Part shown: in pieces, positions 1 to 58,633 of the stretch
Position numbering within the stretch: the stretch's first letter is position 1
How the letters are laid out: each line of letters begins with the position of its first letter
Assembly (NCBI GenBank): GCA_039804025.1
Contig: JBDRZP010000011.1
Coordinates: 1 to 64,000 of the forward strand
Origin: a candidate division WOR-3 bacterium
Lineage (GTDB): Bacteria > Hydrothermota > Hydrothermia > Hydrothermales > JAJRUZ01
Direction: 5' to 3'
DNA length: 64,000 bases
Made by a program: the position numbers and the translations under genes
Notes under the pieces: model-generated
What the model was told of the DNA's origin: nothing
Database searches by the model: none
Seen by the model: only the letters and a program-made list of their open reading frames with translations

Positions 1-116
1 GATCATACAGGAATATTTTGTAGTAGGCACTCCTTATAATCTTATTGAACCAGAAAAATTCAATATATTTATATATTAATAATCCTTACAAGTCTAAAAT
101 GTTATGGGATTTTACA
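1..116 (+). mobile_element. Relic copy 1 of an insertion sequence 3' end
   Basis: This stretch is nearly identical to segments at 29162-29216, 58360-58587 (reverse) and 59172-59250 (reverse). In one frame it reads IIQEYFVVGTPYNLIEPEK and then stops near 79, like the C-terminal tail of a DDE transposase. It closes at about 116 with a sequence whose reverse complement begins TGTA and resembles TGTAGAATACCATAACA, seen at the ends of copies 3 and 4. That shared end is probably the terminal inverted repeat. The left part of the element lies outside the window. Identification as an IS remnant is inference from repetition and the transposase-like reading. Confidence 0.6.
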
Positions 117-213
117 CTTTAAAATTTATTTCAGAAAAAAAATTCAAACCACAAAAACAAATTTCTAAACCAGGGCCCCCTCCTGCCCCAGTTTTTTTAC
201 TTAATCCCTCCAT
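112..213 (-). pseudogene. 33-aa Gly-rich/Cys peptide, probably truncated by the IS relic
   Basis: The ATG at 213 follows a near-perfect ribosome binding site (AAAGGAGGT, about 6 nt upstream) and a sigma-54-type promoter. The peptide has a Gly-rich middle (TGAGGGPG, residues 8-15) followed by CFCG, then a hydrophobic, low-information tail. The stop codon lies inside the end of the IS relic, so the native C-terminus was probably cut off by the insertion. The Gly-rich-then-Cys layout resembles small metal-cluster-associated proteins in which a Gly/Arg-rich N-terminus precedes CxC/CxxC motifs; that family link is recollection and weak. It shares its promoter and enhancer layout with the Hdr-Mvh operon at 20891. 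It could also simply be an intact short peptide. Confidence 0.45.
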
Positions 214-244
214 AACTTTACCTCCTTTTAGAGATTTCATAAAA

Positions 245-260
245 TGCAAATTTTGTTCCA
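245..260 (-). promoter_or_regulatory. Sigma-54 (-24/-12) promoter for the 33-aa ORF
   Basis: The minus strand reads TGGAAC-N5-TTGCA with exactly 10 bp between the GG and GC dinucleotides, the spacing sigma-54 requires. A start about 12 nt downstream gives a leader of roughly 20 nt that contains AAAGGAGGT before the ATG at 213. The same 16-bp motif, with one internal difference, lies upstream of hdrC at 20936-20951. Confidence 0.7.
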
Positions 261-300
261 GAATTAAAAACCTTTAAAATAGAGGATTTTTTATATTTAA

Positions 301-334
301 AAGTGTCTCAATGAGACAGGCTTATGGGACACTT
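301..334 (-). promoter_or_regulatory. Probable enhancer/activator site: 13-bp-period TGTCYCA repeats
   Basis: On the minus strand TGTCCCA (325-331) and TGTCTCA (312-318) are direct repeats 13 bp apart. A third, inverted half-site (304-310) makes TGTCTCA-T-TGAGACA palindromic. The block is 44-70 bp upstream of the sigma-54 motif at 245-260. The same 13-bp spacing of TGTCYYA occurs at 20981-21000. It lies just past the hypE stop and could also fold as a hairpin (AAGTGTC/GACACTT followed by T residues), so a terminator role for hypE mRNA is an alternative or additional reading. Confidence 0.55.
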
Positions 335-1348: not shown

Positions 1349-2122
1349 TTAATAATGTCCGAGAACACCCAATTTTTTTGCTTTTTTCTCACAGATACTA
1401 AAAATATAAAAACCTGTTAAAAAGTAAAAAATAAAAACAAAAAGAAGAATAATAAAATCCACTGGATTCATCTCAAAAATTCTAACCTTATGAATCATAT
1501 TCTGCGCAATCATTCTAACTCCAAGGGAAAAGGGTAAAAATTTAAACAAAAATATTTTATCAGAAGGTGCCATTATAAAAAATACAAATAAGAACTGGAA
1601 AATCTGATAAGTTGCCTGAATTCTTTTAAAGATTAAACCAAGACCAGCTAATATAAATCCAATTCCAAAACTTGGGAAAATTGTTAATAAAAGAAGAGGA
1701 AAAAGAGAAATAATATCAATATTTAAAAATTTACCTGTTGTTATCATCATTAAAAAAAGTAAAGGAATTGTCCACAGAAGATTTATAATGTAAGTTGATA
1801 TTGTTCTATACAATAATACTTTATGTAATCCAAAAGGGGTCATTGAAAGTTGTTCAAGCGTTCCTGCCCGTGCTTCCTCAGTAATATGCCAGCATATTTC
1901 GTATCCAAGGATTGAAAAGATCCATATATAGTAGCCTATTATTAATCCTTCAAGGGTATTTCCTAAATTAAATGTTGAGGGCGAAATAATTTTAACACCT
2001 AAAAATAAGAGTATAAAAATTACATAAATTGTAATCATTGAAAAGAGAGTATTGAATAAATAACTTTTCATTTCTCTAATTTCCTTTTTAAAAATAGCCT
2101 TTAAAAGTATTAAATCATTCAT
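1349..2122 (-). CDS. ABC-2 type transporter permease
   Basis: A 257-aa integral membrane protein with about six hydrophobic segments (near residues 22-45, 60-80, 105-135, 140-165, 175-195 and 225-245), of the ABC-2 permease type. A cytoplasmic segment containing EEARAGTLEQLSMTPF, a coupling-helix-like stretch typical of ABC-2 export permeases, lies near residue 85. The start overlaps the end of the ATPase gene by 8 nt, so the two are translationally coupled and form one transporter. The substrate cannot be read from sequence. Lying between hypD and hypE it could have some role tied to hydrogenase assembly, but simple operon sharing is equally likely. Confidence 0.85.
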   Translation of the reverse strand: MNDLILLKAIFKKEIREMKSYLFNTLFSMITIYVIFILLFLGVKIISPSTFNLGNTLEGLIIGYYIWIFSILGYEICWHITEEARAGTLEQLSMTPFGLHKVLLYRTISTYIINLLWTIPLLFLMMITTGKFLNIDIISLFPLLLLTIFPSFGIGFILAGLGLIFKRIQATYQIFQFLFVFFIMAPSDKIFLFKFLPFSLGVRMIAQNMIHKVRIFEMNPVDFIILLFVFIFYFLTGFYIFSICEKKAKKLGVLGHY

Positions 2123-3053
2123 TTTTTACAATTTTTAAATAAATTTCTTCAAAGTCAGGTGTTATTTCTTCAAATTTTTTTAACCTGAAATTTTTATTTC
2201 TCATCATTTCAATAACATCGTAAATAATTTCGATTGATTTCAATTCTATTTCCATGTTTGTGTTATATTCATTTTCAATAAATTTTACAAGTTCAAATTT
2301 TTCTTTGAATTCTTTTTTAATATTTTCATTTATTTTCCCTTCAATTTCAAAACTAAAAGCTTTATATCCAAAAAATTCTTTTAAGTTTTTTATTGAATCA
2401 ATTGCAACAATTTTCCCTCTGTTTATGATAATAACTCTATCACATATATCTTCAATCAGTTTCATATTATGAGAACTAACAATAAGTGTTTTGGATTCCT
2501 CTTTTGCTTTTTTTCTTATTAATTCTTTAAGTTCACGGGTGGTTTCAACATCAAGTCCAAGTGTGGGTTCATCCAGAAGAATTATTTCAGTATCTTTTAT
2601 AAAAGCACAGGCAACTGCAAGTTTCTGCTGCATCCCCCTTGAAAGAAATCTTGCCTCTTTTTTTTCTTTTTCCCTTAAATTAAAGAAATCAATAAGTTCC
2701 TCAATTTTATTTTTAACATTTTTATAACTCAATCCCTGTAGAGAAGCAAAAAATTCAAGGTTATCCCTTACATTCAATCTCCAGTAAATATTTCTATTTC
2801 CTTCAAGAACAGATGCTATATTTTTTAAGGCAAAAGAAGGGGCTTTCAAAATATCTTTCCCTTTTACAATTATTTGACCTGAATCAGGAATTATAAGTGT
2901 TGAAATGCATTTTATTGTTGTTGTTTTTCCAGCTCCATTTGGACCTAAAAGACCTACAATCTCTCCTCTTTTTATTTCAAAAGAAATGTTATCAACTGCC
3001 TTAATTCCTCCCTTGTAAGTTTTTTTTAAATTTATTACTTCAAGAACATTCAT
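2115..3053 (-). CDS. ABC transporter ATP-binding protein
   Basis: The nucleotide-binding subunit paired with the permease at 1349-2122. Walker A is GPNGAGKTTTIK (about residues 37-48), the signature is LSRGMQQKLA, which deviates from LSGGQ with Arg at the third position, Walker B is ILLDEPTLGLD, and the switch His is in VSSHNM. After the roughly 220-aa nucleotide-binding domain a C-terminal accessory region of about 90 residues follows, as in CcmA/DrrA/NatA-like exporters. It sits 8 nt downstream of hypD on the same strand. Export of an unknown substrate is the family expectation; no nickel-uptake feature is visible. Confidence 0.9.
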   Translation of the reverse strand: MNVLEVINLKKTYKGGIKAVDNISFEIKRGEIVGLLGPNGAGKTTTIKCISTLIIPDSGQIIVKGKDILKAPSFALKNIASVLEGNRNIYWRLNVRDNLEFFASLQGLSYKNVKNKIEELIDFFNLREKEKKEARFLSRGMQQKLAVACAFIKDTEIILLDEPTLGLDVETTRELKELIRKKAKEESKTLIVSSHNMKLIEDICDRVIIINRGKIVAIDSIKNLKEFFGYKAFSFEIEGKINENIKKEFKEKFELVKFIENEYNTNMEIELKSIEIIYDVIEMMRNKNFRLKKFEEITPDFEEIYLKIVKNE

Positions 3054-8213: not shown

Positions 8214-9057
8214 TTATAATTTAAGAGATAAATTTTTATTTTTTTTATCTTATTTATTTTATAAGTTTATAGTTCCTTTAGAAGTTAAAAGACCAAGAAC
8301 AAAGATGTTTATTTATGAAATGATTTATTCCTTTTATAAACTGATTGATTACAAGAAAAATTTCCCTTATTTTTTTAACGATAATTTAATAGTGACAAAA
8401 TTTGGTAAATTTAAAATAAGAAGCAAAACTGCTGATGCAGCTTCTGTTTCACCTGCTTATGAAAGAAGGGATGTAAATTTTTTAATTAAAAAAATTGATG
8501 AAAAAATAAAAGAAAATAAAAAAATTTTATTTTGCGATATAGGTGCTGATATTGGTTACTATTCTATTTTGATAGGTAATAAGTTTAAAAGGAAGATAAA
8601 AATTTTTTCCTTTGAACCATTAAAAGAAAGTTTTGAATTATTGAAGGAAAATATTAATATAAATAATCTATCAGATACTATAGTTCCCTTAAATTTTGCT
8701 CTATCAGATTCTGAAGGTGAGTTTTACATTAATGTTAATATCTTATCACCTGGTGATAGTTCTTTGATTTATAGTTTTGATAATGGAGTTAAGATTAAAG
8801 TAAAAACAAAGAGACTTGATGATATTCTCGGAGATTATGTCAGGGAATTTGATACTGTTCTTGCTAAAATTGATGTAGAGGGTTTTGAAGAGAAAGTTTT
8901 AACTGGAGCAAAAAGATTTTTAGAAAATTCAAAAGAAGTAATTTTATTAATAGAAGATTTTATTAATCCTGAAATTATAAACTATCTTGAAAAAAATAAT
9001 TTTAAATTTTTATGTAAATTAACAACATATAACAGTTTCTGGACCTATAAGTTATGA
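8203..9057 (+). CDS. FkbM-family SAM-dependent methyltransferase
   Basis: A 284-aa protein with the FkbM layout: DIGADIGYYSI (SAM-binding glycine motif, near residue 108), IFSFEPLKESFELLKENI, then IDVEGFEEKVLTGAKRFL, the signature of the family's C-terminal half. FkbM proteins usually O-methylate sugars or polyketides. The 80 N-terminal residues are family-poor. The gene ends tail-to-tail with hypF, overlapping it by 13 nt. The substrate is unknown. Confidence 0.85.
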   Translation: MKFSYNLRDKFLFFLSYLFYKFIVPLEVKRPRTKMFIYEMIYSFYKLIDYKKNFPYFFNDNLIVTKFGKFKIRSKTADAASVSPAYERRDVNFLIKKIDEKIKENKKILFCDIGADIGYYSILIGNKFKRKIKIFSFEPLKESFELLKENININNLSDTIVPLNFALSDSEGEFYINVNILSPGDSSLIYSFDNGVKIKVKTKRLDDILGDYVREFDTVLAKIDVEGFEEKVLTGAKRFLENSKEVILLIEDFINPEIINYLEKNNFKFLCKLTTYNSFWTYKL

Positions 9058-11312
9058 TAGCTAATCTTGATCTGTCCTATAGAAATACCTCCATCATTTG
9101 GAGGTATCTGAGAATGAATAAAAATTTTTTTATTTTTTATTTTTTTAAAAATAAGTTCAGTTAAAAGTTTATTCTGAAATACACCTCCACTTAATAGTAT
9201 TTTATCTTTATCTATAAGCTGGCTTATTTTTTTTACTATTTCTGCAAGGGTTAAATGAAATTTATAAGCAATGTAACTTTTATCCTTTTTTCTTTTAATA
9301 TCAGAAATAATTTCTTCAAAAATTGGAACAAAGTCAATAACATAGTAATTTTCTTTTTTAATTTCAAAAGTGTAAGGAGATTTTAATTTTCCTTTATAAT
9401 TTTCTGCAATCCATTCTAATATCATTGCTGCCTGACCTTCAAAAGTGCTTTTCTGTTTTAAGTTTAATAGTGAAGAAACTGCATCAAATATTCTACCAGC
9501 AGATGTTGTTTTAAAAATAGAAAGATTTTTTTCATAAGCACTTTTAAATATTTTCTTTTCTTCCTCAGTTAAACTTTTAATAGGTTCAAAATCCATTTCA
9601 AAAATTTTTTCACCGTAAATTTCATATAAAATACCAATTGCACTTCTTCTTGGTTCCTTTATTGCTTTATCTCCGCCCAGTAAGCCGAATTCCCTGAAAC
9701 TGGCAAACCTTTTAAAATCTTTAAAATCACATATTAAAAATTCACCACCCCATATTTTACCATCTCTTCCATAACCTGTTCCATCCCAGGAAACTCCTAA
9801 AACCTCTTCTTCAATCCTGTTTTCAATCATACAGGAAGCAATATGAGCATGATGATGGAAAACTTTTATTAAGGGAATATTTTCATTTTTGCTTAATTCC
9901 TCGCCATATTTTGTTGAAAGATATTCAGGGTGAGCATCACAGGCAATAATTTCTGGTTTAAATTCATAAAGCTTTTTAAAGTCTTCTATTACTTTTTTAA
10001 AAGCATTGAAGGATTTTTCATTATCTAAATCTCCTATGTGTTGTGAAACAATTATTCTGTTAAACTTTGATATTGCGATAGTATTTTTAAGGTAAGGTCC
10101 AAGGGCAAGTATCTGTGGTAAGTTTTTTTTGATAATAAAAGGAAGGGGGGCATATCCTCTTGCTCTTCTTATTACGAGAGGTTTATTGTTAATAATTTTA
10201 ACAACTGAATCGTCAATATATCTTTCAATAGGCCTTGTATTCATTAAAAAGTAATCTGCTATATCTTTTAATCTCATAAGAGCTTCTTCATTTTCATAGG
10301 CAATGGGTTCTTCTGATAAATTACCAGAAGTGCATATAATTGGAAAATCAATTTTACTCATTAAAAGGTGATGTAAGGGTGTATAAGGTAAAATTGCACC
10401 TATATAGGGATTATCTGGAGCACAATATTTTGATAATTTATTGTCTTTTTTTGATTTTATAGTTAAAATCGGTGATTGAGGTGATAAAAGTATTTCTTTT
10501 TCAATTGAAGAAATATAGGCATATTCTTTTAAATGTTCAAGGTTTTTAAACATAATTGCGAAGGGTTTTTCGTCCCTCTTTTTTCTTTTTCTTAATTCTA
10601 AAACACATTCATCAGATAAGGCATTTGTTAAAAGTTGAAATCCGCCAATTCCCTTTAAGGCTATTATTTTTCCCTTCTTTAGAAATTGTGCTGTTTTTTC
10701 TATTGCTTTTTCTCCTTTTTCAATAATATTTCCTTCTCTATCTGTAAGAAAAACTTCTGGACCGCATTCAGGACAGGCATTTGGTTGTGCATGAAATCTT
10801 CTATTGATGGGATTTTCGTATTCTTCCTTGCATTCAGGACACATTTCAAAAATTTTCATTGTTGTATTTTTTCTATCATAGGGAATATTTTGAATTATAC
10901 TGAACCTTGGACCACAATTAGTGCAGTTTGTAAAAGGATAAAAGTATCTTCTATTTTTTTTATCAAAAATTTCTCTTTTGCATTCTTCACAGGTTGCAAT
11001 ATCTGGTAGAATAAAAGCGATTTTTTCTCCCTTTTCTTCTGATTTTAAAATTTCAAATTCATTTTCATTTTTAAGGGGAATTTCTTTTATTTCAAATAGT
11101 GTATATGTTGTTAAGGGAGGTTTATCCCTTTTAAGTTTTGAAAGAAATTTGTTTAAGTTTTTAACTTCTCCTTCGACTTCAATTGTAACTCCTTCAGGAT
11201 TATTTTTAACAAATCCATTTAATTTGTTTTCCTTTGCAATTCTATAAACAAAGGGTCTAAATCCTATTCCCTGAACTGTTCCTTCTATTTTTATTAAAAA
11301 TCTTTTCTTCAA
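9045..11312 (-). CDS. hypF: Carbamoyltransferase HypF
   Basis: HypF makes carbamoyl-adenylate from carbamoyl phosphate and transfers the carbamoyl group to HypE as precursor of the cyanide ligand. Domains in order over 755 aa: acylphosphatase (GTVQGIGFRPFVYRIA, residues 10-25), two zinc fingers (CEECKR... NCTNCGP and CPECKEEY... ACPECGP), a YrdC-like domain (KGIGGFQLLTNA; CTSGNLSEEPI) and a Kae1-like C-terminal domain (KVFHHHAHIASC; GVSWDGTGYG; LSGGVFQNKLL). It is the last gene of the long Hdr-Mvh operon and overlaps hypB by 4 nt. Its stop overlaps the convergent FkbM gene. Confidence 0.96.
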   Translation of the reverse strand: MKKRFLIKIEGTVQGIGFRPFVYRIAKENKLNGFVKNNPEGVTIEVEGEVKNLNKFLSKLKRDKPPLTTYTLFEIKEIPLKNENEFEILKSEEKGEKIAFILPDIATCEECKREIFDKKNRRYFYPFTNCTNCGPRFSIIQNIPYDRKNTTMKIFEMCPECKEEYENPINRRFHAQPNACPECGPEVFLTDREGNIIEKGEKAIEKTAQFLKKGKIIALKGIGGFQLLTNALSDECVLELRKRKKRDEKPFAIMFKNLEHLKEYAYISSIEKEILLSPQSPILTIKSKKDNKLSKYCAPDNPYIGAILPYTPLHHLLMSKIDFPIICTSGNLSEEPIAYENEEALMRLKDIADYFLMNTRPIERYIDDSVVKIINNKPLVIRRARGYAPLPFIIKKNLPQILALGPYLKNTIAISKFNRIIVSQHIGDLDNEKSFNAFKKVIEDFKKLYEFKPEIIACDAHPEYLSTKYGEELSKNENIPLIKVFHHHAHIASCMIENRIEEEVLGVSWDGTGYGRDGKIWGGEFLICDFKDFKRFASFREFGLLGGDKAIKEPRRSAIGILYEIYGEKIFEMDFEPIKSLTEEEKKIFKSAYEKNLSIFKTTSAGRIFDAVSSLLNLKQKSTFEGQAAMILEWIAENYKGKLKSPYTFEIKKENYYVIDFVPIFEEIISDIKRKKDKSYIAYKFHLTLAEIVKKISQLIDKDKILLSGGVFQNKLLTELIFKKIKNKKIFIHSQIPPNDGGISIGQIKISYHNL

Positions 11313-11974
11313 GATTTGAAGTATTCTTCTCTTTTATTTTTAATAAATTCTGCTACTTCTTTTATATTATCTCCTTTTAATGCTGATATTTTGAAAATTT
11401 TAATGTTTTCTTTAATTTTTTTTGCTTCTTCTTCAACTTTTTCAATATCAAAGTTAAGATATGGTAAAAGGTCAATTTTATTTATTAATATAACATCACC
11501 TGTTAAAAAGGCTTTAGGATATTTTGGTAATTTATCGTCACCCTCAGGTGTTGATAACATTATAATTCTTAAATGTTCTCCCAAATCATAACTTGCAGGG
11601 CAGACAAGGTTACCAACATTTTCAATAAAGAGATATTCTGTGTTTTCAGGTATTAGTGAAATAGATTTTTTTATCATAATTGCTTCAAGGTGACAGGTTC
11701 CGCCTGTTACAATCTGGTAGGAATTTCCTCCTTTTTCCCTTATTCTTTTTGCATCTCTTTCAGTTTCAATATCTCCAACGAGTATAAAAACTTTATTTTT
11801 TTCAAAAAAGCTAAGTAATTTTTCAATGAAAGTTGTTTTACCTGCTCCAGGTGAAGATATTATATTTATTACAAATATTTTTCTTTTATTAAAAAATTCT
11901 CTTAACTCCTGAGCAATTTCTTCATTAACTTTTAAAATTGGTATTGAGATATCTTCTCTAATTATTTTTGTCAT
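11309..11974 (-). CDS. hypB: Hydrogenase nickel incorporation GTPase HypB
   Basis: HypB is the GTPase that drives nickel insertion into the hydrogenase large subunit with HypA. Seen over 221 aa: P-loop SSPGAGKTTF, GDIETERDA, the metal-site TGGTCHLEA with Cys and His, ENVGNLVCPASYDLGE, and the specificity loop LINKIDL. It lacks the His-rich N-terminal nickel-storage tail of some homologues. It sits between hypA and hypF, with a 21-nt gap after hypA and a 4-nt ATGA overlap with hypF. Confidence 0.96.
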   Translation of the reverse strand: MTKIIREDISIPILKVNEEIAQELREFFNKRKIFVINIISSPGAGKTTFIEKLLSFFEKNKVFILVGDIETERDAKRIREKGGNSYQIVTGGTCHLEAIMIKKSISLIPENTEYLFIENVGNLVCPASYDLGEHLRIIMLSTPEGDDKLPKYPKAFLTGDVILINKIDLLPYLNFDIEKVEEEAKKIKENIKIFKISALKGDNIKEVAEFIKNKREEYFKS

Positions 11975-11995: not shown

Positions 11996-12343
11996 TTAAA
12001 AATTTTCAATAACTAAACTTTTTATAAAAATTTTATCTCCTTTAATTATTTCTCCGCCAAAGTTTTCGCAAAAAGGGCATAGAAAGGGAAAATAAGGAGT
12101 ATTAAAAGTTTTTCCGCATTTTAAACATTTAATTTCAGGTTCTATTAAGTTTATTTTTAATTCTGTTTCTTTGAATTCTGTTTCTTTTTTTAATATTTCA
12201 AAGGCTTCTTCAAAAAGAACCGGTTCTGCTCCTGAAAGTTTTCCAAAATCAAGTTCTACCTTAAGGATTTTTTTTGCTTTTTTCTCCTTTTTCTGTTCTC
12301 TTAGTAATTCAATAAGATTATTTGCTAAAGAGTATTCGTGCAT
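11996..12343 (-). CDS. hypA: Hydrogenase nickel chaperone HypA
   Basis: A 115-aa HypA with the nickel-binding N-terminus MHEYSLA (His2) and a structural zinc site with two cysteine pairs (CLKCGKTF and FLCPFC). It delivers nickel to the large subunit with HypB. The ATG overlaps the fhs stop by one base (TAATG), indicating coupled translation inside the Hdr-Mvh-fhs-hyp operon. Confidence 0.95.
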   Translation of the reverse strand: MHEYSLANNLIELLREQKKEKKAKKILKVELDFGKLSGAEPVLFEEAFEILKKETEFKETELKINLIEPEIKCLKCGKTFNTPYFPFLCPFCENFGGEIIKGDKIFIKSLVIENF

Positions 12344-14010
12344 TAAAATATTCCTGTTATTTCTCCATTTTCATCAATATCAATATTAATTGCTGCTGGT
12401 TCTTTGGGTAATCCAGGCATTTCAAGTATGTCACCGCAAAGGGGAACTATGAATTTTGCTCCTGATTTAATTCTTACATCATCTATTCTAAGTTCGAAAT
12501 TTTTAGGCCATCCCCTTAATTTTGAATTATCTGAGATTGAATACTGGGTTTTTGCCATACAGATATAAAAATCATTGAAATTAAGTGTTTCACAAAGTTC
12601 TATTTTCTTTAAAGCATTTTCTGAATATATAACTGTGTTTGCTCCATAAACTTCTTTTGATATTTTTTCAATTTTTTCCTTTATTCCTGATTTTATATCA
12701 TAAAGTCTTTTAAAGTTTTCTTTTTCATTTTCAATAACTTCAATAATTTTATTTGCTAATTCTTTACTACCTTCTCCCCCTTTTAAGAAACCTTCACATA
12801 TAGAAAAGGGAACTTTTTCCTCAATTAATAGTTCTTCGAGTTTTTTTATTTCTCTTTCTGTATCAGAAGGAAATCTGTTTATAGCCACCACTGTTCTGAG
12901 TCCGAATACATTTTTAAGTATATTTATATGTGCTTTCAAATTTTCAAAACCTTTTATTAGGGCGTTTTCATTTTCTGTTTTTAATTGTTCCTTTTTAAGA
13001 CCCCCGTGATATTTCAATGCTCTTATTGAAACTACGAGAACTGCACAATCTACTTTTGTATCAAGTTCCCTTGTTACAATATTTATGAATTTTTCAGCAC
13101 CAAGGTCAGAACCAAATCCTGCTTCTACAACTGCGTATTCGCAAAGTTTTAATGCTAAATCTATTGCTAAAACTGAACATGTGCCATGAGCTATATTTCC
13201 AAAAGGTCCTGTGTGTATTATTGCAGGTGTATTTTCACTTGTTTGAACAAGGTTAGGTTTTAAAGCATCTTTTAGAAGTGCAGCCATAGCTCCCTGGGCT
13301 TTTAAATTTTTTGCAAAAACCGGTTCCTTTTTATAGGTAAATCCTAAAAGAATGTTTGAAATTCTTTCTTTAAGTTCATTATAGTTTTTAGAAAGTCCAA
13401 GTATTGCCATTATTTCAGAAGCAGGAGTGATTACAAATCCATCCTCCCTTAAAGGTCCATTTTTCAAGGGATTGAGTCCTACTATCACCTTTCTTAAAGA
13501 TCTATCATTCATATCAATGGTTCTTGGCCATAATATATCGTTAGGGTTTATTCCAAGAGAGTTGCCATGGAAAATTGAAGCATCTAACATGGCTGAAAGC
13601 AAATTATGAGCTGAACTTACTGCGTGAAAATCTCCTGTAAAGTGAAGGTTTATTTCTTCCATAGGTAAAACCTGGGAATAACCACCACCTGTGGCTCCCC
13701 CCTTTATTCCAAAAACAGGTCCAAGTGAGGGTTCCCTTAAACAGACGATAGATGTTTTTCCCAATTTCCAGAAAGCCATAGAAAGGGAAATTGAAACAGT
13801 TGTTTTACCTTCACCAAAGGGCGTTGGAGTCATTGCAGTTACAAGGATTAGTTTGCCTTTTCTTTCCTTTGTTTTAAAAAATTCTGGTTCAATTTTAGCC
13901 TTATATTTTCCGTAAAGATATAGAGAATTTTCGTTTATTCCAATTTTTTCAGCAATTTCTTTTATATCAAAGAGTTTTATAGATTTAGCAATTTCAATAT
14001 CAGATTTCAA
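12343..14010 (-). CDS. fhs: Formate-tetrahydrofolate ligase
   Basis: This enzyme condenses formate with tetrahydrofolate using ATP to give 10-formyl-THF, the entry to the methyl branch of the Wood-Ljungdahl pathway and to C1 biosynthesis. The 555-aa length fits. TPFGEGKTTVSISLS (near residue 65) is the ATP-binding loop. FHAVSSAHNLLSAMLDA and GGATGGGYSQVLPMEEINLHFTGD cover the folate/formate site. Its position inside the hydrogenase/Hdr operon, between the maturation protease and hypA, suggests that H2-derived reductant and C1 metabolism are co-regulated. No formate dehydrogenase, folD or metF lies in the window. Confidence 0.96.
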   Translation of the reverse strand: MKSDIEIAKSIKLFDIKEIAEKIGINENSLYLYGKYKAKIEPEFFKTKERKGKLILVTAMTPTPFGEGKTTVSISLSMAFWKLGKTSIVCLREPSLGPVFGIKGGATGGGYSQVLPMEEINLHFTGDFHAVSSAHNLLSAMLDASIFHGNSLGINPNDILWPRTIDMNDRSLRKVIVGLNPLKNGPLREDGFVITPASEIMAILGLSKNYNELKERISNILLGFTYKKEPVFAKNLKAQGAMAALLKDALKPNLVQTSENTPAIIHTGPFGNIAHGTCSVLAIDLALKLCEYAVVEAGFGSDLGAEKFINIVTRELDTKVDCAVLVVSIRALKYHGGLKKEQLKTENENALIKGFENLKAHINILKNVFGLRTVVAINRFPSDTEREIKKLEELLIEEKVPFSICEGFLKGGEGSKELANKIIEVIENEKENFKRLYDIKSGIKEKIEKISKEVYGANTVIYSENALKKIELCETLNFNDFYICMAKTQYSISDNSKLRGWPKNFELRIDDVRIKSGAKFIVPLCGDILEMPGLPKEPAAINIDIDENGEITGIF

Positions 14011-14034: not shown

Positions 14035-14532
14035 TTATTTTAAAAAATCCCTTATTATTTTTTCAATTTTTGTGATAATTTCAGGTATTTTTTTCTTTAA
14101 GTTTTCAGATAGTTCTGGTTTTATAGTATATGGGTCTTCAACAGAAATTCCTATTATAAGCAATTCTTTTGGGAAAGGAATTTTTAATTTTTTTGCAATT
14201 TTATAAATTTCAGGTAATCCTATGTAATGGTTACTTTTTATTTGTTTTGAATCAAAATCTTTCTGTTTAAAAATGTATATTTCTCCTATGTCTTTTTTTC
14301 CGGTGAAAATACTGTCAATTATTACTGCTTTTTCATAAGGCGAAAGAAAATCAATTAAAGAAAGCCCCATTTCTTCAGTGGATATAATGTCAGCAAGATT
14401 TAAAAATTTTTTTTCTAAAAATTTGGTTAAATATATTCCTATTCCATCGTCACCTCTTATTGTATTACCGAGTCCAAGAATTAAATACTTCTTCCTTAAA
14501 TCTTTTTTTTCAAAAGTTTTTAATCTTATCAA
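14035..14532 (-). CDS. Hydrogenase maturation protease (HyaD/HycI family)
   Basis: A 165-aa nickel-dependent endopeptidase that clips the C-terminal tail of the large subunit after nickel insertion. Seen: LGLGNTIRGDDGIGIYL with the metal-binding Asp, the middle Asp in VIIDSIFTG, and the His in SNHYIG. It overlaps the 3' end of mvhA by 23 nt, just where the tail it should cleave is encoded. The start appears to be TTG at 14532, preceded by AAGGG about 9 nt upstream; no in-frame ATG lies before the conserved LILGLGN. Confidence 0.9.
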   Translation of the reverse strand: MIRLKTFEKKDLRKKYLILGLGNTIRGDDGIGIYLTKFLEKKFLNLADIISTEEMGLSLIDFLSPYEKAVIIDSIFTGKKDIGEIYIFKQKDFDSKQIKSNHYIGLPEIYKIAKKLKIPFPKELLIIGISVEDPYTIKPELSENLKKKIPEIITKIEKIIRDFLK

Positions 14533-15973
14533 TTATGTTGCCCTTTTTATCCCTTATATTTATAAGAAGTGGTATATTTCCTGGTAGTGAATGAGTTCCG
14601 CAAGCATGACATGGATCATAAGCTCTAAAGGCCATTTCAATCATATTTAATATTCCTTCATCATATTTTCCATTTTTTATAAGACCTTTTGCTGCTTTTT
14701 CTACGGACATTGCAATTCTTGCTGCATTGTTCTGGGTAGCAACAATAAGATTTGCTTTTGTTATAAATCCCTTTTCATCAGTTTCATAGTGATGTATTAG
14801 TATTCCTCTTGGTGCTTCAACAACACCAATACCTACTGAAGGTATTTCTTTACTTATGTTTCTTATATTATCTGATGTAATTTCAGGATCCTTTGCCAAT
14901 TCAAGAAATCTCTCAGCAGCATAAATCATTTCAATTACTCTTGCCCAGTGATTTGCAAGTGTATGGTGAACAGGTTTTACGCCCAGTGTTTTATAAAATT
15001 CTTCATACGCCTCTTGAGCTTTTGGTGTTGCCATTCCCTCTGAAGCATTTAACCTTGCAAGAGGTGCTACAGAATAAACACCTGAATCCTTTCCGTCAAT
15101 AAATCCTTTCCATCCTACTTTTTTAAGGAAAGGAAACTTTATATAGGTCCAGTTTTCAACATGTTCTGCTATGTAATCTTTGTAATCCCTTACATCAAAT
15201 AGAGCAAATTCTTTTCCTTCAGGGTCTACAACTCTTATTTTTCCGTCATAGAAATTAACCTTTTTGTTATTATCAACAAGACCCATATAATAGGTTCTAT
15301 GGGTGTAAGTATCCGATGTTATAAGTTCTACATATTCTTTGTTTGACAAAACTATATCTTTGAAAACCTTTAAAGTAAAGAGGGCAAATTCAACTCCTTT
15401 TTCAGCAACCTTTACAAAATTTTTTCTTTCTTCCTCTTTTAATCCTCTTGTAACACCACCTGGAACTCCCCATGCGGGGTGAATAACTTTTCCTGCAAGA
15501 AGTGTCATAAGTTCTCTTATTTCCCTTCTCATTGAAATTACTTTTTTACCTATTTCAAGCCCCACCTTCTGTATTACTCCTAAAACATTTCTTTCTTCTT
15601 TTTTTGCTTTTGGTCCAACAATAAAGTCAGGTCCTCCAAGAATATAAACATGGAGTGCATGGTCTTCAAGCATAAACATATTGTAGAGCATTTCTCTTAA
15701 TTTTTTTGCAGGAGAAGGTGGTTCCACTTTATAAAGGTCATCGAGAGCTTTTGTGCTTGCCATGTGATGTGCTGTTGGACAGACACCACAGATTCTTGGT
15801 GTTATAATTGGCATATCCTCAGCTGGTTTACCTTTAACAAAAATTTCAAATCCTCTTAACTCTGGGACGACAAAATAGGCTTTTTCTACATTTCCATTTT
15901 CGTCAAGAAAAATTTCTATTTTTCCGTGCCCTTCAAGTCTTGTAATTGGGTCAATTGTTATTCTATGTTCCAT
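14510..15973 (-). CDS. mvhA: [NiFe]-hydrogenase large subunit (Mvh type, group 3)
   Basis: The catalytic subunit that splits H2 at a Ni-Fe(CN)2CO centre. Over 487 aa the N-terminal RICGVCPTAH (near residue 61) and C-terminal DPCHACGTH supply the four nickel cysteines. About 26 residues follow that His and are expected to be removed by the neighbouring protease. TRLEGHGKIEI at the start and the overall length fit group 3c/MvhA-type soluble hydrogenases. It forms an operon with mvhG, mvhD and hdrABC, so electrons should pass to the FAD of HdrA for flavin-based bifurcation. Confidence 0.95.
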   Translation of the reverse strand: MEHRITIDPITRLEGHGKIEIFLDENGNVEKAYFVVPELRGFEIFVKGKPAEDMPIITPRICGVCPTAHHMASTKALDDLYKVEPPSPAKKLREMLYNMFMLEDHALHVYILGGPDFIVGPKAKKEERNVLGVIQKVGLEIGKKVISMRREIRELMTLLAGKVIHPAWGVPGGVTRGLKEEERKNFVKVAEKGVEFALFTLKVFKDIVLSNKEYVELITSDTYTHRTYYMGLVDNNKKVNFYDGKIRVVDPEGKEFALFDVRDYKDYIAEHVENWTYIKFPFLKKVGWKGFIDGKDSGVYSVAPLARLNASEGMATPKAQEAYEEFYKTLGVKPVHHTLANHWARVIEMIYAAERFLELAKDPEITSDNIRNISKEIPSVGIGVVEAPRGILIHHYETDEKGFITKANLIVATQNNAARIAMSVEKAAKGLIKNGKYDEGILNMIEMAFRAYDPCHACGTHSLPGNIPLLINIRDKKGNIIDKIKNF

Positions 15974-15976
15974 TTT

Positions 15977-16963
15977 TTACCCTCCATTTTTTTTATTTTT
16001 TGTTTCAAAAATTAAAGATTTAGGTAAGGAATATTTATAAACTATTCCAAGGGGATTTGGCATCCATTCATTTATTATTTTTTCAATCTCTTCTTCATTA
16101 TTTGAATCAATTAAAGATGCTAAAAAAGAAAGAGCTTTGGCACCGTAGTCTTCAATTCCGTCGAGAGGTCCAAAACAACCTGTGCAAGGATAATTTGCTT
16201 TTACACATAAAGCTTCACATCCACCCCTTGTTACAGGTCCAAGACAGGCAAATCCCTGTATTAGTAAGCACTTATCCTTTTCCGGTTGATTTTTATCAAT
16301 TCTTTTAAATTCTTTTAAAGTAATTTTTTCTGGTTTTGTGTCATTTAAAGGACATTCATTACATAGTGCTTTGCTACTTGCACCCAAAACACTTCCCTTT
16401 GGTGGTAAATTACCAGAAAATAAAGTATCAATAGAATTTTTAACAACATTTCTTGTTGGAGCACATCCAGGAATATAATAGTCTACATCTATTACCTGGT
16501 CAAGAGCATAAACTCTCTCATAGAATTCTGGAATTTCAAAAGCAAGGTTTTTCTCTATGTATTGTGGTGTTGGTCTTTTGTCCTCTGGATTAAAAACAGT
16601 TAAACCTTCCTTGTAATAGTAATTCATTATTTCTTCTTTTGAGTAAGAGTTAGCGAGTCCTGGTATGCCACCAGTATATGCACAGGAGCCAAAAGCTATA
16701 ACAATTTTTGATTTTTTTCTTAAAAGTTTTACCATTTCTTCCTGTTCAGAATTTCTAACTGATCCATTGATGAAGGATACAAGAATTTCTCCGTCTTTTA
16801 GATTTTCTACATCTTTTCTTTTAAAATCCATCGCGACTGGCCAGAATACAATTTCTGCTTTTTCTACAACCTGTAAAATATCTTCAGCAAGGTCTACTAC
16901 TGCTTCCTCACATCCTCCACATGAAGCACACCAGTAAAGAGCAATTTTAGGTTTTTCACTCAT
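15977..16963 (-). CDS. mvhG: [NiFe]-hydrogenase small subunit (Mvh type)
   Basis: The electron-transfer subunit with iron-sulfur clusters. LYWCASCGGCEEAVVDL near the N-terminus carries the proximal-cluster cysteines (CxxC). Later cysteine sets are FGSCAYTGGIPG, PGCAPTR, KALCNECPL and CLGPVTRGGCEALC... CTGCFGPLDG. There is no Tat signal peptide, so the enzyme is cytoplasmic. The 328-aa length is at the long end for group 3 small subunits. It overlaps nothing: it ends 3 nt before mvhA and follows mvhD. Confidence 0.93.
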   Translation of the reverse strand: MSEKPKIALYWCASCGGCEEAVVDLAEDILQVVEKAEIVFWPVAMDFKRKDVENLKDGEILVSFINGSVRNSEQEEMVKLLRKKSKIVIAFGSCAYTGGIPGLANSYSKEEIMNYYYKEGLTVFNPEDKRPTPQYIEKNLAFEIPEFYERVYALDQVIDVDYYIPGCAPTRNVVKNSIDTLFSGNLPPKGSVLGASSKALCNECPLNDTKPEKITLKEFKRIDKNQPEKDKCLLIQGFACLGPVTRGGCEALCVKANYPCTGCFGPLDGIEDYGAKALSFLASLIDSNNEEEIEKIINEWMPNPLGIVYKYSLPKSLIFETKNKKNGG

Positions 16964-16966
16964 TTT

Positions 16967-17419
16967 TTACCCCCCTTTTGTAGAAGTTAATAATTTTTTA
17001 AAGGCTTCATCATTGGAAATAGGACCTAAATTTTTTATCTCTTCTACAAATTCCTTAACAACCCTTTGTAATTTTTCTCCTTCTGATGCTGAAATCCATT
17101 CAAGTCTCAATCTTTTATCGTTGATTCCCATTTCTTTTAAAACTCTTTTTAGAAGTTTATATCTCCTTAAGGTTTTGTAATTACCTTCAATATAGTGGCA
17201 ATCACCTGGATGGCAACCCCCAATTAAAACACCATCTGCACCGTTTCTGAATGCCCATAAAATGAACTGAGGGTCAATTCTTCCAGAACACATTGTTCTT
17301 ACAATCCTTAAATTAGCTGGATAATCCATTCTTGAGACACCAGCTAAATCTGCTGCAAGGTAAGTACACCAGTTACAAAATATTCCAAGTAATTTTGGTT
17401 CAAAATTATTATTTTTCAT
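16967..17419 (-). CDS. mvhD: MvhD-type [2Fe-2S] electron-transfer subunit
   Basis: A 150-aa protein linking hydrogenase to HdrA. Conserved cysteines occur in FCNWCTYLAADLAG, RTMCSGRI and GGCHPGDCHYIEGN, the standard MvhD pattern. Genes named MvhD or FlpD occur wherever an Mvh hydrogenase or formate dehydrogenase docks onto HdrA. Its location between hdrA and mvhG supports assembly of a single HdrABC-MvhADG complex. Confidence 0.93.
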   Translation of the reverse strand: MKNNNFEPKLLGIFCNWCTYLAADLAGVSRMDYPANLRIVRTMCSGRIDPQFILWAFRNGADGVLIGGCHPGDCHYIEGNYKTLRRYKLLKRVLKEMGINDKRLRLEWISASEGEKLQRVVKEFVEEIKNLGPISNDEAFKKLLTSTKGG

Positions 17420-17432
17420 TTTAAACCTCCTT

Positions 17433-19424
17433 TTAAACTAAAGCACCTTCAATTTCAGCGTAAATTTGTTCATCAAGGAATAATCTTTGCTGTGCTGCCT
17501 TAGATGGGCAGGCAGCAACACAAACTCCACATCCCTTACAGAGTGCTTCGTTTATATGAGCAATCTTCTTTTCTTCGTTAAAGGAAATAGCAGAATAGGG
17601 ACATAGAGCAATGCAGACATGGCATCCTGAACATTTTTCTTCATCAATAAAAGCTGTATTGGGTTCAAGAGTAATTTCGGATTTATCAATGAGGGCAAGG
17701 GCTTCTGCTGCAGCTGCTTCTGCTTGAGCTACTGTATCGGGAATATCCTTTGGACCCTGACATGCACCTGCAATAAAAACTCCATCTGTGAATGTTGAAA
17801 CAGGAGCAAGTTTTGGATGCCTTTCAAGGAACCAGCCTTCCTTTGAGCAGGAAATGTTTAAAAGTCTCCTTACTTCATCGGCATCAGGTTGAGGGGTGAG
17901 ACCAACTGAGAGAATAACCATATCAACTGGAATTCTCCTTACAACACCGATAAGGGTATCTTCCACTCTTATTATTAATTTACCCTCTTCTTCAGGAGTA
18001 ATTGCCCAATCAGTAACTTCTGCAACTTTACCTCTTATAAAATGGACTCCTTCTTCCATTAATTTGAGATAAAACTCCTCATAACCTTTTCCAGGTGTTC
18101 TCATATCAATATAAAAGTTATAGACCTCAGCGCCTGTTCTTTCCTTTATAAGGTGGGCAAGTTTGAGTGAATACATACAGCATACTCTTGAACACCATAT
18201 ATTATAATTCTTATCCCTTGAACCAACACAGTGAACAATTCCAACGGATTTTGGTGTTCTTCCATCCCTTAAAATAATTTCGCCTCCAGTGGGTCCAGAA
18301 GAGTTTACAAGTCTTTCCACCTCAAGGGAAGTATAAACATTTGGATATCTGCCATATCCATACTGAGGAATCTGGGAAGGATCAAAAATTTTAAATCCTG
18401 TTGCAACTATTATAGCTCCAACTTCAACTTCAATTATCTCCTCTCTCATATTGAAGTCTATTGCACCCCTTTCACAGGCTTCCTGACATGCTTTCTTGCA
18501 TTTCCCAGATAAAAACTGAATACATGTAGCAGGATCTATTATAGCAGCAAGAGGAACGGCCTGAGGAAAAGGAATATAAATTGGTTTTCTTTTTGAAAGA
18601 CCTTCATCAAATTCATTTGGAAATTTTCCTTCTTTATAAACGCAATTTTTTATACACTCGTAACATCCAACACATTTTTCAATGTCAACATATCTTGGTT
18701 TTTTTCTAATTTTTACTTTAAAGTTACCTACATAACCATCTACATTTTCTACTTCTGAATAGGTTAGAAGTGTAATATTAGGGTGGTCTTTAACAGCAGT
18801 CATTTTGGGTGTTAAAATACAGGAAGCACAGTCAAGGGTTGGGAAAGTTTTATCAAATTTTGCCATATGACCACCTATTGATGGTTCTCTTTCAACAAGA
18901 TAGACTTTTTTACCAGCATCTGCAATTGTTAAGGCAGCAGTAATTCCTGCTATACCACCACCAATAATAAGGACATCTGGATTTATTTTTTCTTTCTTCT
19001 TTTCAAGTGCTTCGTGAAATACAACCCTGTAAACTGCCGCTTTTACCATGGCTTTGGCTTTTTCTGTTGCTTCTTTTGAGTCCTTTGTTACCCAGGACAC
19101 ATGCTCTCTTATGTTTGCCATCTGGAAATAAAAGGGATTAAGTCCTGCTTCCTCAGCTGCTTTCCTGAAGGTGTGTTCATGAAGATGGGGAGAACAGGAC
19201 GCTACAACAATTCTATTTAATTTCAGTTCCTTTATATCTTTCTTTATTAAATCCTGTCCTGGGTCAGAACACATGTATTTATAATCTCTTGCTACTATAA
19301 CATTTGGTAAATTCTGTGCATACTTTACTACTTCTTCTATCTTAACTTTCCCTGCTATATTTGTTCCACAATGGCATATATAAACACCTATTCTTATTTC
19401 ACCATTATGTTTTACACTTTTCAT
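17433..19424 (-). CDS. hdrA: Heterodisulfide-reductase-like subunit A, bifurcating flavoprotein
   Basis: A 663-aa FAD and iron-sulfur protein, the site of flavin-based electron bifurcation in HdrABC-MvhADG complexes. Order: N-terminal cysteine domain (GVYICHCGTN), FAD-binding DVLIIGGGIAGITAALTIAD, the FDKTFPTLDCASCILTPKM region, an inserted ferredoxin cluster (CVGCYECIKNC), and two C-terminal [4Fe-4S] ferredoxin motifs (CSGCHVCIALCPYSAI and CKGCGVCVAACPSKAA). Length and domain order match archaeal HdrA. In a bacterium the disulfide acceptor is unknown, because CoM-S-S-CoB is not expected. It is part of the 11.8-kb operon. Confidence 0.94.
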   Translation of the reverse strand: MKSVKHNGEIRIGVYICHCGTNIAGKVKIEEVVKYAQNLPNVIVARDYKYMCSDPGQDLIKKDIKELKLNRIVVASCSPHLHEHTFRKAAEEAGLNPFYFQMANIREHVSWVTKDSKEATEKAKAMVKAAVYRVVFHEALEKKKEKINPDVLIIGGGIAGITAALTIADAGKKVYLVEREPSIGGHMAKFDKTFPTLDCASCILTPKMTAVKDHPNITLLTYSEVENVDGYVGNFKVKIRKKPRYVDIEKCVGCYECIKNCVYKEGKFPNEFDEGLSKRKPIYIPFPQAVPLAAIIDPATCIQFLSGKCKKACQEACERGAIDFNMREEIIEVEVGAIIVATGFKIFDPSQIPQYGYGRYPNVYTSLEVERLVNSSGPTGGEIILRDGRTPKSVGIVHCVGSRDKNYNIWCSRVCCMYSLKLAHLIKERTGAEVYNFYIDMRTPGKGYEEFYLKLMEEGVHFIRGKVAEVTDWAITPEEEGKLIIRVEDTLIGVVRRIPVDMVILSVGLTPQPDADEVRRLLNISCSKEGWFLERHPKLAPVSTFTDGVFIAGACQGPKDIPDTVAQAEAAAAEALALIDKSEITLEPNTAFIDEEKCSGCHVCIALCPYSAISFNEEKKIAHINEALCKGCGVCVAACPSKAAQQRLFLDEQIYAEIEGALV

Positions 19425-19438
19425 TATTTTTCCTCCTT

Positions 19439-20323
19439 TTAAACAGCTGCTTTTTGATATAAAATTTCAGGGTAAATAATATGATGATTAAATCCGAGTT
19501 CCTTTTCATCAATACCAAAAGCAACACCAAGAAGCTGTGTAAAGTAAATAACAGGTATAGAGAGCTTATCCTTAAACATTTTTTCCATTCTATCTTGATA
19601 AACTTCAAGGTTGAACTGACATAAAGGACAAACTGTGACAATCAAATGAGCACCTTTTCTTTTTGCTTCTCTTAATATAAGGTAAGAAAGACGGAATCCT
19701 ACTTCCTCTATAGTTCCTGAAAGAGATCCTCCGCAGCATTTAGTTTTTAAAGCACTTTCAACAGTTTCTGCACCGGTTGCCTCAACAATCCTATCAAGAT
19801 TTACAGGGTATCTTGGATTATCAAACTCTGTGAAGGGTCTTGTGAGAAGGCAACCATAATAGGAAAATACTCTTATCCCCCCAAGTGTTCTTTTAACTTT
19901 AGATTTTATTTTTTCAATTCCTACATCATTTATTAAAACATCAAGAGGGTGTCTCACTTTGACTTTCCCTTCGTAAACTTCTTTAAGGTTTGCCTTTTTA
20001 ACTGCTTCACATATTTTTTCTCTTATATCAGGGTATTCCTTGATAAAATGAATCGTTTTGTTTAACACCATATAACAAGCTGAACAGGGTGCTATAATGT
20101 CTCTTTCTTCTTTTTCAGCTATTGATAAATTTCTTACAGCCATTTTAAAAGATGCAAGCTCATCAATTGACATGTAAGTTGTAGCACCACAGCAATTCCA
20201 GTCCGGAAGTTCTGGTATATCCATTTCAAGATATTTAAAAACAGCAAGAAGAGATTTTTCATAAGATTTTCCTGTGCCCTTTAATGAGCAACCAGGATAA
20301 TAAAAATACTTTTTCTGATTCAT
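19439..20323 (-). CDS. hdrB: Heterodisulfide-reductase-like subunit B
   Basis: A 294-aa protein with two CCG domains that bind noncubane [4Fe-4S] clusters, the site of disulfide reduction in HdrB. The first domain has YPGCSLKGTG, WNCCGATTY and PCSACYMV. The second has YYGCLLTRP, KCCGGSLSG and CPLCQFNLE. Both cysteine sets look complete, so catalysis on a disulfide-type substrate is plausible. It starts 2 nt after the hdrC stop and is followed by hdrA after a 14-nt gap. Confidence 0.93.
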   Translation of the reverse strand: MNQKKYFYYPGCSLKGTGKSYEKSLLAVFKYLEMDIPELPDWNCCGATTYMSIDELASFKMAVRNLSIAEKEERDIIAPCSACYMVLNKTIHFIKEYPDIREKICEAVKKANLKEVYEGKVKVRHPLDVLINDVGIEKIKSKVKRTLGGIRVFSYYGCLLTRPFTEFDNPRYPVNLDRIVEATGAETVESALKTKCCGGSLSGTIEEVGFRLSYLILREAKRKGAHLIVTVCPLCQFNLEVYQDRMEKMFKDKLSIPVIYFTQLLGVAFGIDEKELGFNHHIIYPEILYQKAAV

Positions 20324-20324
20324 C

Positions 20325-20891
20325 TTAAACCTCCTTTAAAAGTTTTTTTAAAGTGCTTTTATCCTTTATTTTTTCTTCCTTAAAACTTAATCTTCCCTTA
20401 CTTAAAAGTTTTAATCCTAATGAAGCATTTTGAATAATTTTTAAAAGGGAAGTTTTAAGCCATAAATTCATAACAAGCTTTGCTTCAGATTGTCTTCCAT
20501 TTCTTGAAACTATATCATAAAAAGTTTTTGCTAAAATGGGAATCGGGAATTTTTTGGGATACTTTCCTTCTTTTATAGCCATTCTTTTAAGAGCATACAT
20601 AATGTATGTGATCTTTATGTTTTGAGGACATTCCACCTGACAAGAATAGCAAGAAGCACACAACCATATTGTTTTTGATGAGAGAACTTCATCTTTGAAT
20701 CCTTCCCTTACCATCGCAATTATCCTTCTTGGTGGATAATCCATATAAATTGAAAGGGGACATGTTCCAGAACATGTTCCACACTGTATACATTCTAAAA
20801 TACCTTCACCCCCTGGAGAATTTATAACTTCTTTTGTAAAATCCCTGTTAAGTTCACTTTCATATTTAATTGTTCTTTTAAATTTTTCCAT
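20325..20891 (-). CDS. hdrC: Heterodisulfide-reductase-like subunit C
   Basis: A 188-aa iron-sulfur protein with two [4Fe-4S] motifs, CIQCGTCSGTCPLSIY and CASCYSCQVECPQNI, that connects HdrA to HdrB. There are no membrane segments, matching the soluble HdrABC type and not membrane HdrDE. It is the first gene of the Hdr-Mvh-fhs-hyp operon. Its ATG lies about 35 nt downstream of the start site predicted from the sigma-54 motif at 20936-20951. Confidence 0.93.
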   Translation of the reverse strand: MEKFKRTIKYESELNRDFTKEVINSPGGEGILECIQCGTCSGTCPLSIYMDYPPRRIIAMVREGFKDEVLSSKTIWLCASCYSCQVECPQNIKITYIMYALKRMAIKEGKYPKKFPIPILAKTFYDIVSRNGRQSEAKLVMNLWLKTSLLKIIQNASLGLKLLSKGRLSFKEEKIKDKSTLKKLLKEV

Positions 20892-20935: not shown

Positions 20936-20951
20936 TGCAAATTCTGTTCCA
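20936..20951 (-). promoter_or_regulatory. Sigma-54 promoter of the Hdr-Mvh operon
   Basis: The minus strand reads TGGAAC-N5-TTGCA with the obligatory 10 bp between GG and GC. It matches the 245-260 motif at all but one internal position. It predicts transcription start near 20925 and a leader of about 35 nt before hdrC. Confidence 0.72.
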
Positions 20952-20980
20952 CCTATTTTTTTATTAAAATTGTGTTTTTT

Positions 20981-21000
20981 TAGGACATTTTTTTGAGACA
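20981..21000 (-). promoter_or_regulatory. Probable enhancer site for the Hdr-Mvh sigma-54 promoter
   Basis: The minus strand carries TGTCTCA and, 13 bp later, TGTCCTA, separated by an A-tract. This is the same spacing and half-site as at 312-331. It lies 30 bp upstream of the sigma-54 motif. It also overlaps the -35 hexamer (TTGAGA, 20993-20998) of the divergent aminotransferase promoter, so a bound activator could repress that gene. Confidence 0.55.
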
Positions 21001-29161: not shown

Positions 29162-29216
29162 AAAGAGGAACATTTTGTAGTAGGGACTCCTTGTAATCTT
29201 ATTGAGCCAAAAAATT
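29162..29216 (+). mobile_element. Relic copy 2 of the same IS 3' end
   Basis: Matches copy 1 and copy 3 over about 55 bp, reading EEHFVVGTPCNLIEPKN then stop in the transposase frame. Relative to copy 3 it lacks 10 bp (ATCATACAGG), a deletion bounded by AGG on both sides. It lies between the FIST gene and the restriction-modification pair. Confidence 0.6.
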
Positions 29217-29298
29217 AAATATAAATATCATAATTGATATTTTACTTCTTTTTTCTTTAAAATTTACAAATAAAAAAAAATATAAAAAATATATTTAT

Positions 29299-58241: not shown

Positions 58242-58633
58242 AGTTTCTCCTTTCCCTTTTTCTCATGTGTAAAAATTTAAAATGAAAAAAATAAAAATAA
58301 ATAAAAAAATGAATAGCATATTAAATTATAAATTAAAAAAAATTAAAATTTCAAGTTTTTGTAGAATACCATAACATTTTAGACTGATAAGGATTATTAA
58401 TATATGTTTTTAAAAAATAATCAAGGAGAGAAAAATTATTTAAAGATTTATGATGTTTTTTAGTATTACAAAAGAAAAGGTAATTAATTAACTCAATATT
58501 GAATTTTTCTGGATCAATAAGTTACAAGGAGTGCCTACTACAAAATGTTCCTGTATGATCCTCTTTAAATCTTTCAACATAGGCATTTTCTCATAAAATC
58601 CTTTATATTTCACCTTAATTTTCCTCTCTATCA
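58242..58633 (-). mobile_element. Gap with relic copy 3 of the IS 3' end (about 58360-58587)
   Basis: No intact gene. On the minus strand 58587 to 58360 reads NAYVERFK in one frame, then IIQEHFVVGTPCNL in the next after a one-base shift. That composite is like the NAYVERF..IxxEF tail of an rve/DDE transposase. The copy ends at TGTAGAATACCATAACA (58360-58376), the probable terminal repeat. About 90 bp of unrelated A+T-rich DNA splits this copy relative to copy 1. The remainder (58242-58359 and 58588-58633) is A+T-rich with nothing recognised. Confidence 0.6.

Follow-up and report, generated by a model that had tools for sequence, protein, structure and literature searches.

Predicted sigma-54 signals shared by an Hdr-Mvh operon and a candidate sponge RNA gene in a WOR-3 bacterium

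Short G-rich RNAs that act as sponges of C-rich small RNAs are known from Firmicutes. In Bacillus subtilis, RosA is a G-rich sponge of RoxS and FsrA, with targets that include TCA and sdh genes, and has a tiny ORF (PMC8216469). The same paper gives RsaI with RsaE of Staphylococcus aureus as a further pair of sponge and small RNA (PMC8216469). As summarised elsewhere, the sponge SroC is processed from the 3' UTR of the gltIJKL mRNA and titrates GcvB, the unit having a sigma-54-dependent promoter (PMC9731577). Among the sigma-54 response regulators of Desulfovibrio vulgaris, DVU2394 has control of an operon for adh and heterodisulfide reductase (PMC3333781), and several Desulfovibrio activator motifs have TGT/ACA half-sites 9, 11 or 12 bp apart, with three half-sites in one case (PMC4641369).

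Here, we analyse a stretch of 64,000 bp (the window), the initial 64 kb of contig C11 in the 2.12 Mb genome of a WOR-3 bacterium (G000; 30% GC). The best explanation of its signals, to which we assign a probability of about 0.55, is that a sigma-54 regulon of H2/Hdr metabolism also makes a sponge RNA; the promoter part of this reading is strong, and the sponge part would stand at about even odds. As with RosA and RsaI, the predicted RNA would be short, G-rich and complementary to a C-rich small RNA whose targets are mRNAs of central metabolism, sdh among them. Further likenesses to RosA would be a tiny ORF within the sponge and sponge transcription tied to metabolism. However, RosA is governed by sigma-A and CcpA, whereas sigma-54 and an enhancer would act here and the complementary block lies in a hairpin loop. 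The phyla are unrelated, and the likeness, known here from sequence alone, carries no claim of homology. A sponge from a transcription unit with a sigma-54-dependent promoter is shared with SroC (PMC9731577), although SroC is processed from a 3' UTR and the present candidate is a short separate unit. The D. vulgaris regulators are similar in that a response regulator would act over Hdr genes from enhancers with TGT...ACA half-sites; that phylum is a different one, and the DVU2394 operon has an alcohol dehydrogenase and is not known to us to have a NiFe hydrogenase. Given the precedents of RosA, SroC and DVU2394, none of the components is new in kind; what is new is their combination, and the lineage in which it occurs.

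Promoters and enhancers at two loci

A sequence-only reading of the window had proposed two sigma-54 promoters on the minus strand, each of the form TGGAAC-N5-TTGCA with exact GG-N10-GC spacing, and upstream of each a direct repeat of TGTCYYA with a 13-bp period. Re-reading confirmed the promoters at 245-260 (TGGAACAAAATTTGCA, mini-gene) and 20936-20951 (TGGAACAGAATTTGCA, hdr operon), each with one mismatch to TGGCAC-N5-TTGCW, and likewise the repeats at 312-331 and 20981-21000. A PWM scan of all GG-N10-GC sites, covering 2.097 of 2.123 Mb (98.8% of the genome), ranked the two promoters first and second among -24/-12 sites outside ORFs; two sites genome-wide scored higher, both within ORFs. 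The third-ranked intergenic site precedes pilin genes next to a PilR-like regulator, and serves as a good positive control.

On the minus strand, the repeat reads TGTCCCA-TAAGCC-TGTCTCA at the mini-gene (331-312) and TGTCTCA-AAAAAA-TGTCCTA at the hdr operon (21000-20981), 71 and 49 bp upstream of the respective promoter. The whole genome holds exactly two exact matches to TGTCYYA-N6-TGTCYYA, namely these two, in line with the earlier statement that there was no third example; one mismatch adds four more places compared with 14 for a control pattern. The chance of both exact repeats falling within 100 bp upstream of both promoters is an estimated 1e-9 or so, for a motif defined from these very sites, and relatives therefore provide the real test of the enhancer.

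In G001 and G002, which belong to the same genus, repeat and promoter are both kept ahead of hdrC at the G000 spacing of 49 bp, with different flanks; the hdrC promoter of G002 is identical to that of G000 and that of G001 is identical at 15 of 16 positions. The mini-gene enhancer is kept in G002 and in G003, which is of another genus and reads TGTCTCA-N6-TGTCTCA 71 bp from the promoter TGGAATGAAAATTGCA, a spacing identical to G000. Further, the inner half-site at the mini-gene belongs to a perfect palindrome and makes up one half of it, TGTCTCA-A-TGAGACA (304-318; central base T in the minus-strand listing), and the G001 hdrC enhancer, TGTCTCA-N6-TGTATC-AAA-GATACA, has the same layout of half-site and palindrome. 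The enhancer is thus more than a direct repeat, comprising an outer half-site and a TGT-N9-ACA inverted repeat. In full it spans 304-331 at the mini-gene (minus strand; half-site TGTCCCA at 325-331, then the palindrome) and 20973-21000 at the hdr operon (minus strand; half-site TGTCTCA at 20994-21000, then TGTCCTA at 20981-20987 in a degenerate palindrome). As in NtrC-type enhancers, a palindromic site lies upstream of the promoter and is conserved at orthologous genes.

Further regulon members were sought in several ways. A third exact match is absent from G000. In five relatives, the relaxed pattern TGTMYCA-N6-TGTMYYA occurred about 1-2 times as often as a control, and a convincing -24/-12 box accompanied just two of the matches inspected, hdrC and the mini-gene. 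A palindrome scan for other enhancers gave no convincing intergenic site. An apparent TGTGTCTC upstream of window position 4328 is merely the hypC start (ATG TGT CTC ...).

Both an intact rpoN and candidate AAA+ activators, which the sequence-only reading had named as a check, are present in G000, the latter as at least five NtrC-type response regulators and a sixth protein, a protein-kinase/AAA+ fusion of 1567 aa. A possible candidate for the activator of these sites, an orphan regulator on contig C31, has same-size matches in G001 to G003. The 1567-aa protein (G000:C21:21355-26055) combines a Ser/Thr-kinase-like N-terminus with a sigma-54 AAA+ activator domain at the C-terminus, and frames of similar size occur in G003 and G004.

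Promoter ranks, a repeat found only twice, the presence of rpoN and activators, and signals kept in relatives together support sigma-54 control of the hdr operon and the mini-gene. Many partial matches to TGGNNC-N5-TTGC do lie within genes, as would be expected if the signals were chance look-alikes in AT-rich DNA, but the unique enhancer pair, the top intergenic ranks and conservation in relatives whose flanks otherwise diverged make this very improbable; conservation in particular already counts against it, and we consider it disfavoured.

The 11.8-kb operon downstream of the second promoter lies on the minus strand and consists, in order, of hdrC-like (20325-20891; TIGR03290 9.8e-26, under the curated cut-off), hdrB-like (19439-20323; TIGR03288 2.2e-56, CCG domains), hdrA (HdrA2-like, 17433-19424; NF040770 2.4e-258), mvhD (16967-17419; PF02662 2.7e-54), mvhG for the hydrogenase small subunit (15977-16963; VhuG 1.8e-58), mvhA for the NiFe hydrogenase large subunit (14510-15973; VhuA 3.5e-122), a hydrogenase maturation protease gene (14035-14532; TIGR00072 1.9e-25), fhs for formate-tetrahydrofolate ligase (12343-14010; PRK13505 1.4e-243), hypA (11996-12343; putative, assigned by position and conservation in G001 and G002), hypB (11309-11974; TIGR00073 9.7e-74) and hypF (9045-11312; TIGR00143 1e-250). 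All six subunits of the flavin-based electron-bifurcating HdrABC-MvhADG complex are therefore encoded in one operon together with hydrogenase maturation genes. The present form differs from the known complex in being bacterial and in having fhs inside the operon, and heterodisulfide is probably not its substrate. The position of fhs is conserved in G001 and G002. Elsewhere in the window, an ABC transporter ATPase gene and a gene whose 257-aa product matches nothing in Pfam (1349-3053) separate hypD from hypE, and look like an insertion because hypD and hypE are adjacent in G001 and G002.

Close HdrA orthologues occur in G002 (97%), G001 (87%) and G009 (74%; same class), while G003 has no close orthologue of the operon. 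No -24/-12 box was found upstream of hdrC in G009, the next operon orthologue, which suggests that sigma-54 control of the hdr operon is recent and narrow.

The mini-gene and its hairpin

The first promoter precedes a mini-ORF of 33 aa (MEGLSKKTGAGGGPGLEICFCGLNFFSEINFKV; 112-213, minus strand) with the ribosome-binding site AGGAGG (221-226, minus strand). This ORF had been taken for a Gly-rich/Cys protein partner of the regulon, a claim that we reject. The G002 cassette is 97% identical to that of G000 as far as mid-ORF and diverged beyond, due to an interspersed repeat copy (1-149) in G000 that is, by sequence comparison, the source of the Cys-containing tail; the Cys tail is thus accidental, and the CFC tail is missing from the G002 and G003 ORFs. 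The repeat, of about 140 bp, also lies at 29166-29223 and 58341-58560 of the window and on many other contigs; copies in G000 and G002 number in the dozens.

What is conserved is an RNA-like block of 18 nt. In G003 the cassette sits among different genes and runs from enhancer and promoter to AGGAGGTAAAATTATG and then the invariant block ACTGGGGCAGGAGGGGGC (175-192, minus strand, in G000). The block supplies an arm, as well as the loop AGGAGGGG, of a 10-bp hairpin on the minus strand, AAACTGGGGC-AGGAGGGG-GCCCTGGTTT (167-194), which is a predicted fold and a candidate sponge-like element. Between G003 and G000, none of the 18 block positions changed and the 3' arm shows three changes, all pair-preserving on the minus strand. 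The hairpin is predicted at -13.3 kcal/mol on the minus strand vs -7.7 on the plus strand; overall the minus-strand form is more stable by 4.5-5.6 kcal/mol, with z about -4.8. These comparisons draw on three mini-gene sequences, two of them nearly identical.

The mini-gene could instead make a functional micro-protein (Mx-G-L-x-K-x-T-G-A-G-G-G) acting with Hdr-Mvh, the small-RNA match described below being incidental or a matter of translational control. Its start AGGAGGTAAARTTATG is conserved in G003, the ribosome-binding site is good, and an in-frame 3-nt indel between G000 and G003 suggests that the ORF may be translated; RosA, the closest known sponge, likewise has a tiny ORF (PMC8216469). 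Yet the mini-ORFs of G000, G002 and G003 (33, 26 and 18 aa) have different tails and nothing in common beyond the start and TGAGGG, the Cys part is repeat-derived, all 18 block nucleotides are invariant including wobble positions, and G003 has the mini-gene without a close orthologue of this hdr operon. We regard a micro-protein as unlikely.

Anti-SD seeds in terminator loops are known from other bacteria. The hairpin might be a terminator, possibly bidirectional, or its plus strand might yield another small RNA with the seed, derived from the 3' end of a convergent gene, with no sponge involved. The plus strand carries CCCCCTCCTGCCCCAG followed by seven T, and a convergent ORF ends 12-22 nt ahead of CCCCCTCCTGCCCCAG in G003 and G002. 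However, the plus-strand hairpin is the weaker one, with A.C mismatches in place of the G-U pairs of the minus strand. G002 and G003 also have different convergent genes, while enhancer, promoter and ribosome-binding site are all kept on the minus strand. Such a role is similarly doubtful, and a minus-strand sponge-like RNA is our preferred reading.

A class-wide C-rich small RNA and its candidate targets

When 147 genomes from the phylum were searched for the block, many of those belonging to the class had one or two copies of CTGGGGCAGGAGGGGG, antisense to a conserved element that runs from CCCCATCCAACCACCCCCTCCTG through a GCCCCAGGGAG...CTCCCTGGGGC hairpin to a T-run. A C-rich seed is thus followed by a predicted rho-independent terminator, the layout of a C-rich anti-SD small RNA like RoxS, RsaE and FsrA. 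The seed is invariant or nearly so at about 24 loci and a T-run terminator is present at all but one. In G000 the element lies at G000:C30:24879-24895 and surroundings; other loci are L248, L231, L203-L211 and L225-L232. Several families have a putative sigma-70-like promoter, read by eye (TTGACA-N17-TATAAA in L231, TTGAAA-N17-TATAAT in G003), and in other families the small RNA follows a ferredoxin gene by 20-50 nt. In the predicted fold, the seed is entirely unpaired in the L231 form and partly paired in the G000 form. Across 84,980 species, the exact pattern occurred in 18 stretches, all titled WOR-3 or Hydrothermota except one from an uncultured bacterium. No Rfam family matched the small RNA, and we found no paper on WOR-3 small RNAs.

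The mini-gene block is perfectly complementary to the invariant seed over 16 nt in G000 and 15 nt in G003. The small-RNA gene itself aside, there is no other complement of more than 12 nt in the 2.1 Mb. Co-folding of both RNAs was no better than with shuffled mini-genes (ddG -11.7 vs -10.3 +/- 3.8 in G000; -11.6 vs -6.7 +/- 3.1 in G003), since both hairpins have to open in a model that allows for no loop-loop or kissing contact. Co-folding thus failed as proof of a sponge, and for this reason the mini-gene RNA is not classed as a RosA/RsaI-type sponge but as one that may work like it.

The seed is complementary to an extended SD, and the ribosome-binding sites that match it include those of sdhB, Hdr and cytochrome genes. 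Candidate targets were ranked by contiguous match length; ranking by duplex folding was dropped as long gapped duplexes dominated. The longest match at a ribosome-binding site in G000 is that of sdhB (GCAGGAGGGG; G000:C15:30271-31080), and it is retained at sdhB of G002 and G003. No sdhB site was found in G001 with up to three mismatches allowed, and this genome also has no mini-gene. Coding constraint may contribute to the match, since the ORF before it runs into the sdhB SD. Fe-S/haem genes made up 5 of the 14 genes with at least 8 matching nt compared with 44 of 1915 (2.3% of genes; P 9e-6, the target list having been seen before testing), and the enrichment held against SD-matched genes with GGAGG (P about 0.001). 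Some of these genes sit in common operons, and shuffled-flank controls equalled the Fe-S/haem count in 15 of 300 trials, so that the SD regions of Fe-S/haem genes as small-RNA targets are suggestive only. Separately, a secreted-protein gene (L202; G032:C125) has CTGGGGCAGGAGGGGG in its SD region, a perfect complement over 16 nt to the small RNA that G032 itself carries.

A proposed circuit

In the circuit that we propose, one sigma-54/NtrC-type activator switch would control two transcripts. The activator would bind the outer TGTCYYA half-site and the TGT-N9-ACA palindrome, 49-71 bp upstream of the near-identical -24/-12 promoters. Transcript 1 would be the 11.8-kb hdrCBA-mvhDGA-protease-fhs-hypABF operon and transcript 2 a very short RNA that presents AGGAGGGG, complementary to the C-rich seed, on its hairpin. 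Pairing in the cell, this RNA would most probably titrate the class-wide small RNA, which itself, judging by its sequence, should mask the Shine-Dalgarno sites of selected mRNAs, sdhB first and then other Fe-S and cytochrome genes. Switching on H2/Hdr metabolism would thereby also relieve small-RNA repression of redox enzymes, including that of sdhB- and Hdr-type mRNAs. The promoters, enhancers, their conservation, the complementarity and the hairpin are established computationally, whereas the single activator and all steps from transcription to relief of repression are inferred.

The earlier proposal of a single NtrC-type activator and sigma-54 running an H2/Hdr regulon is borne out as regards rpoN, the activators and conservation upstream of hdrC; a single activator is plausible, given that both loci have matching half-sites and that the gap from enhancer to promoter is 22 bp longer at one than at the other, or roughly two turns of the helix. 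Alternatively, sigma-54 control of hdr may be real, but with a separate activator for each promoter or with a mini-gene that is no more than a remnant in decay. The number of activators in the genome would allow for the former, and G001 keeps the hdr promoter without a mini-gene while the G000 copy has been invaded by the repeat. Against this stand the shared half-sites, the two-turn spacing difference and an enhancer kept across genus divergence, and we judge separate activators or a remnant to be quite improbable.

In conclusion, if the reading of a shared regulon with a sponge RNA is true, a WOR-3 lineage has a sigma-54 regulon combined with a small-RNA circuit, and the Firmicutes design of C-rich small RNA and G-rich sponge also arose in a phylum unrelated to them, where it links hydrogen/Hdr metabolism to redox-enzyme translation. 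Directly testable predictions follow for the short RNA, for its loop and for the site at sdhB. More broadly, and somewhat short of even odds, a lineage-specific C-rich small RNA may govern Fe-S and cytochrome translation in WOR-3, and the sigma-54 activator of H2/Hdr genes may make an antidote RNA with an SD-like loop, which would couple electron-bifurcation genes to global redox translation.
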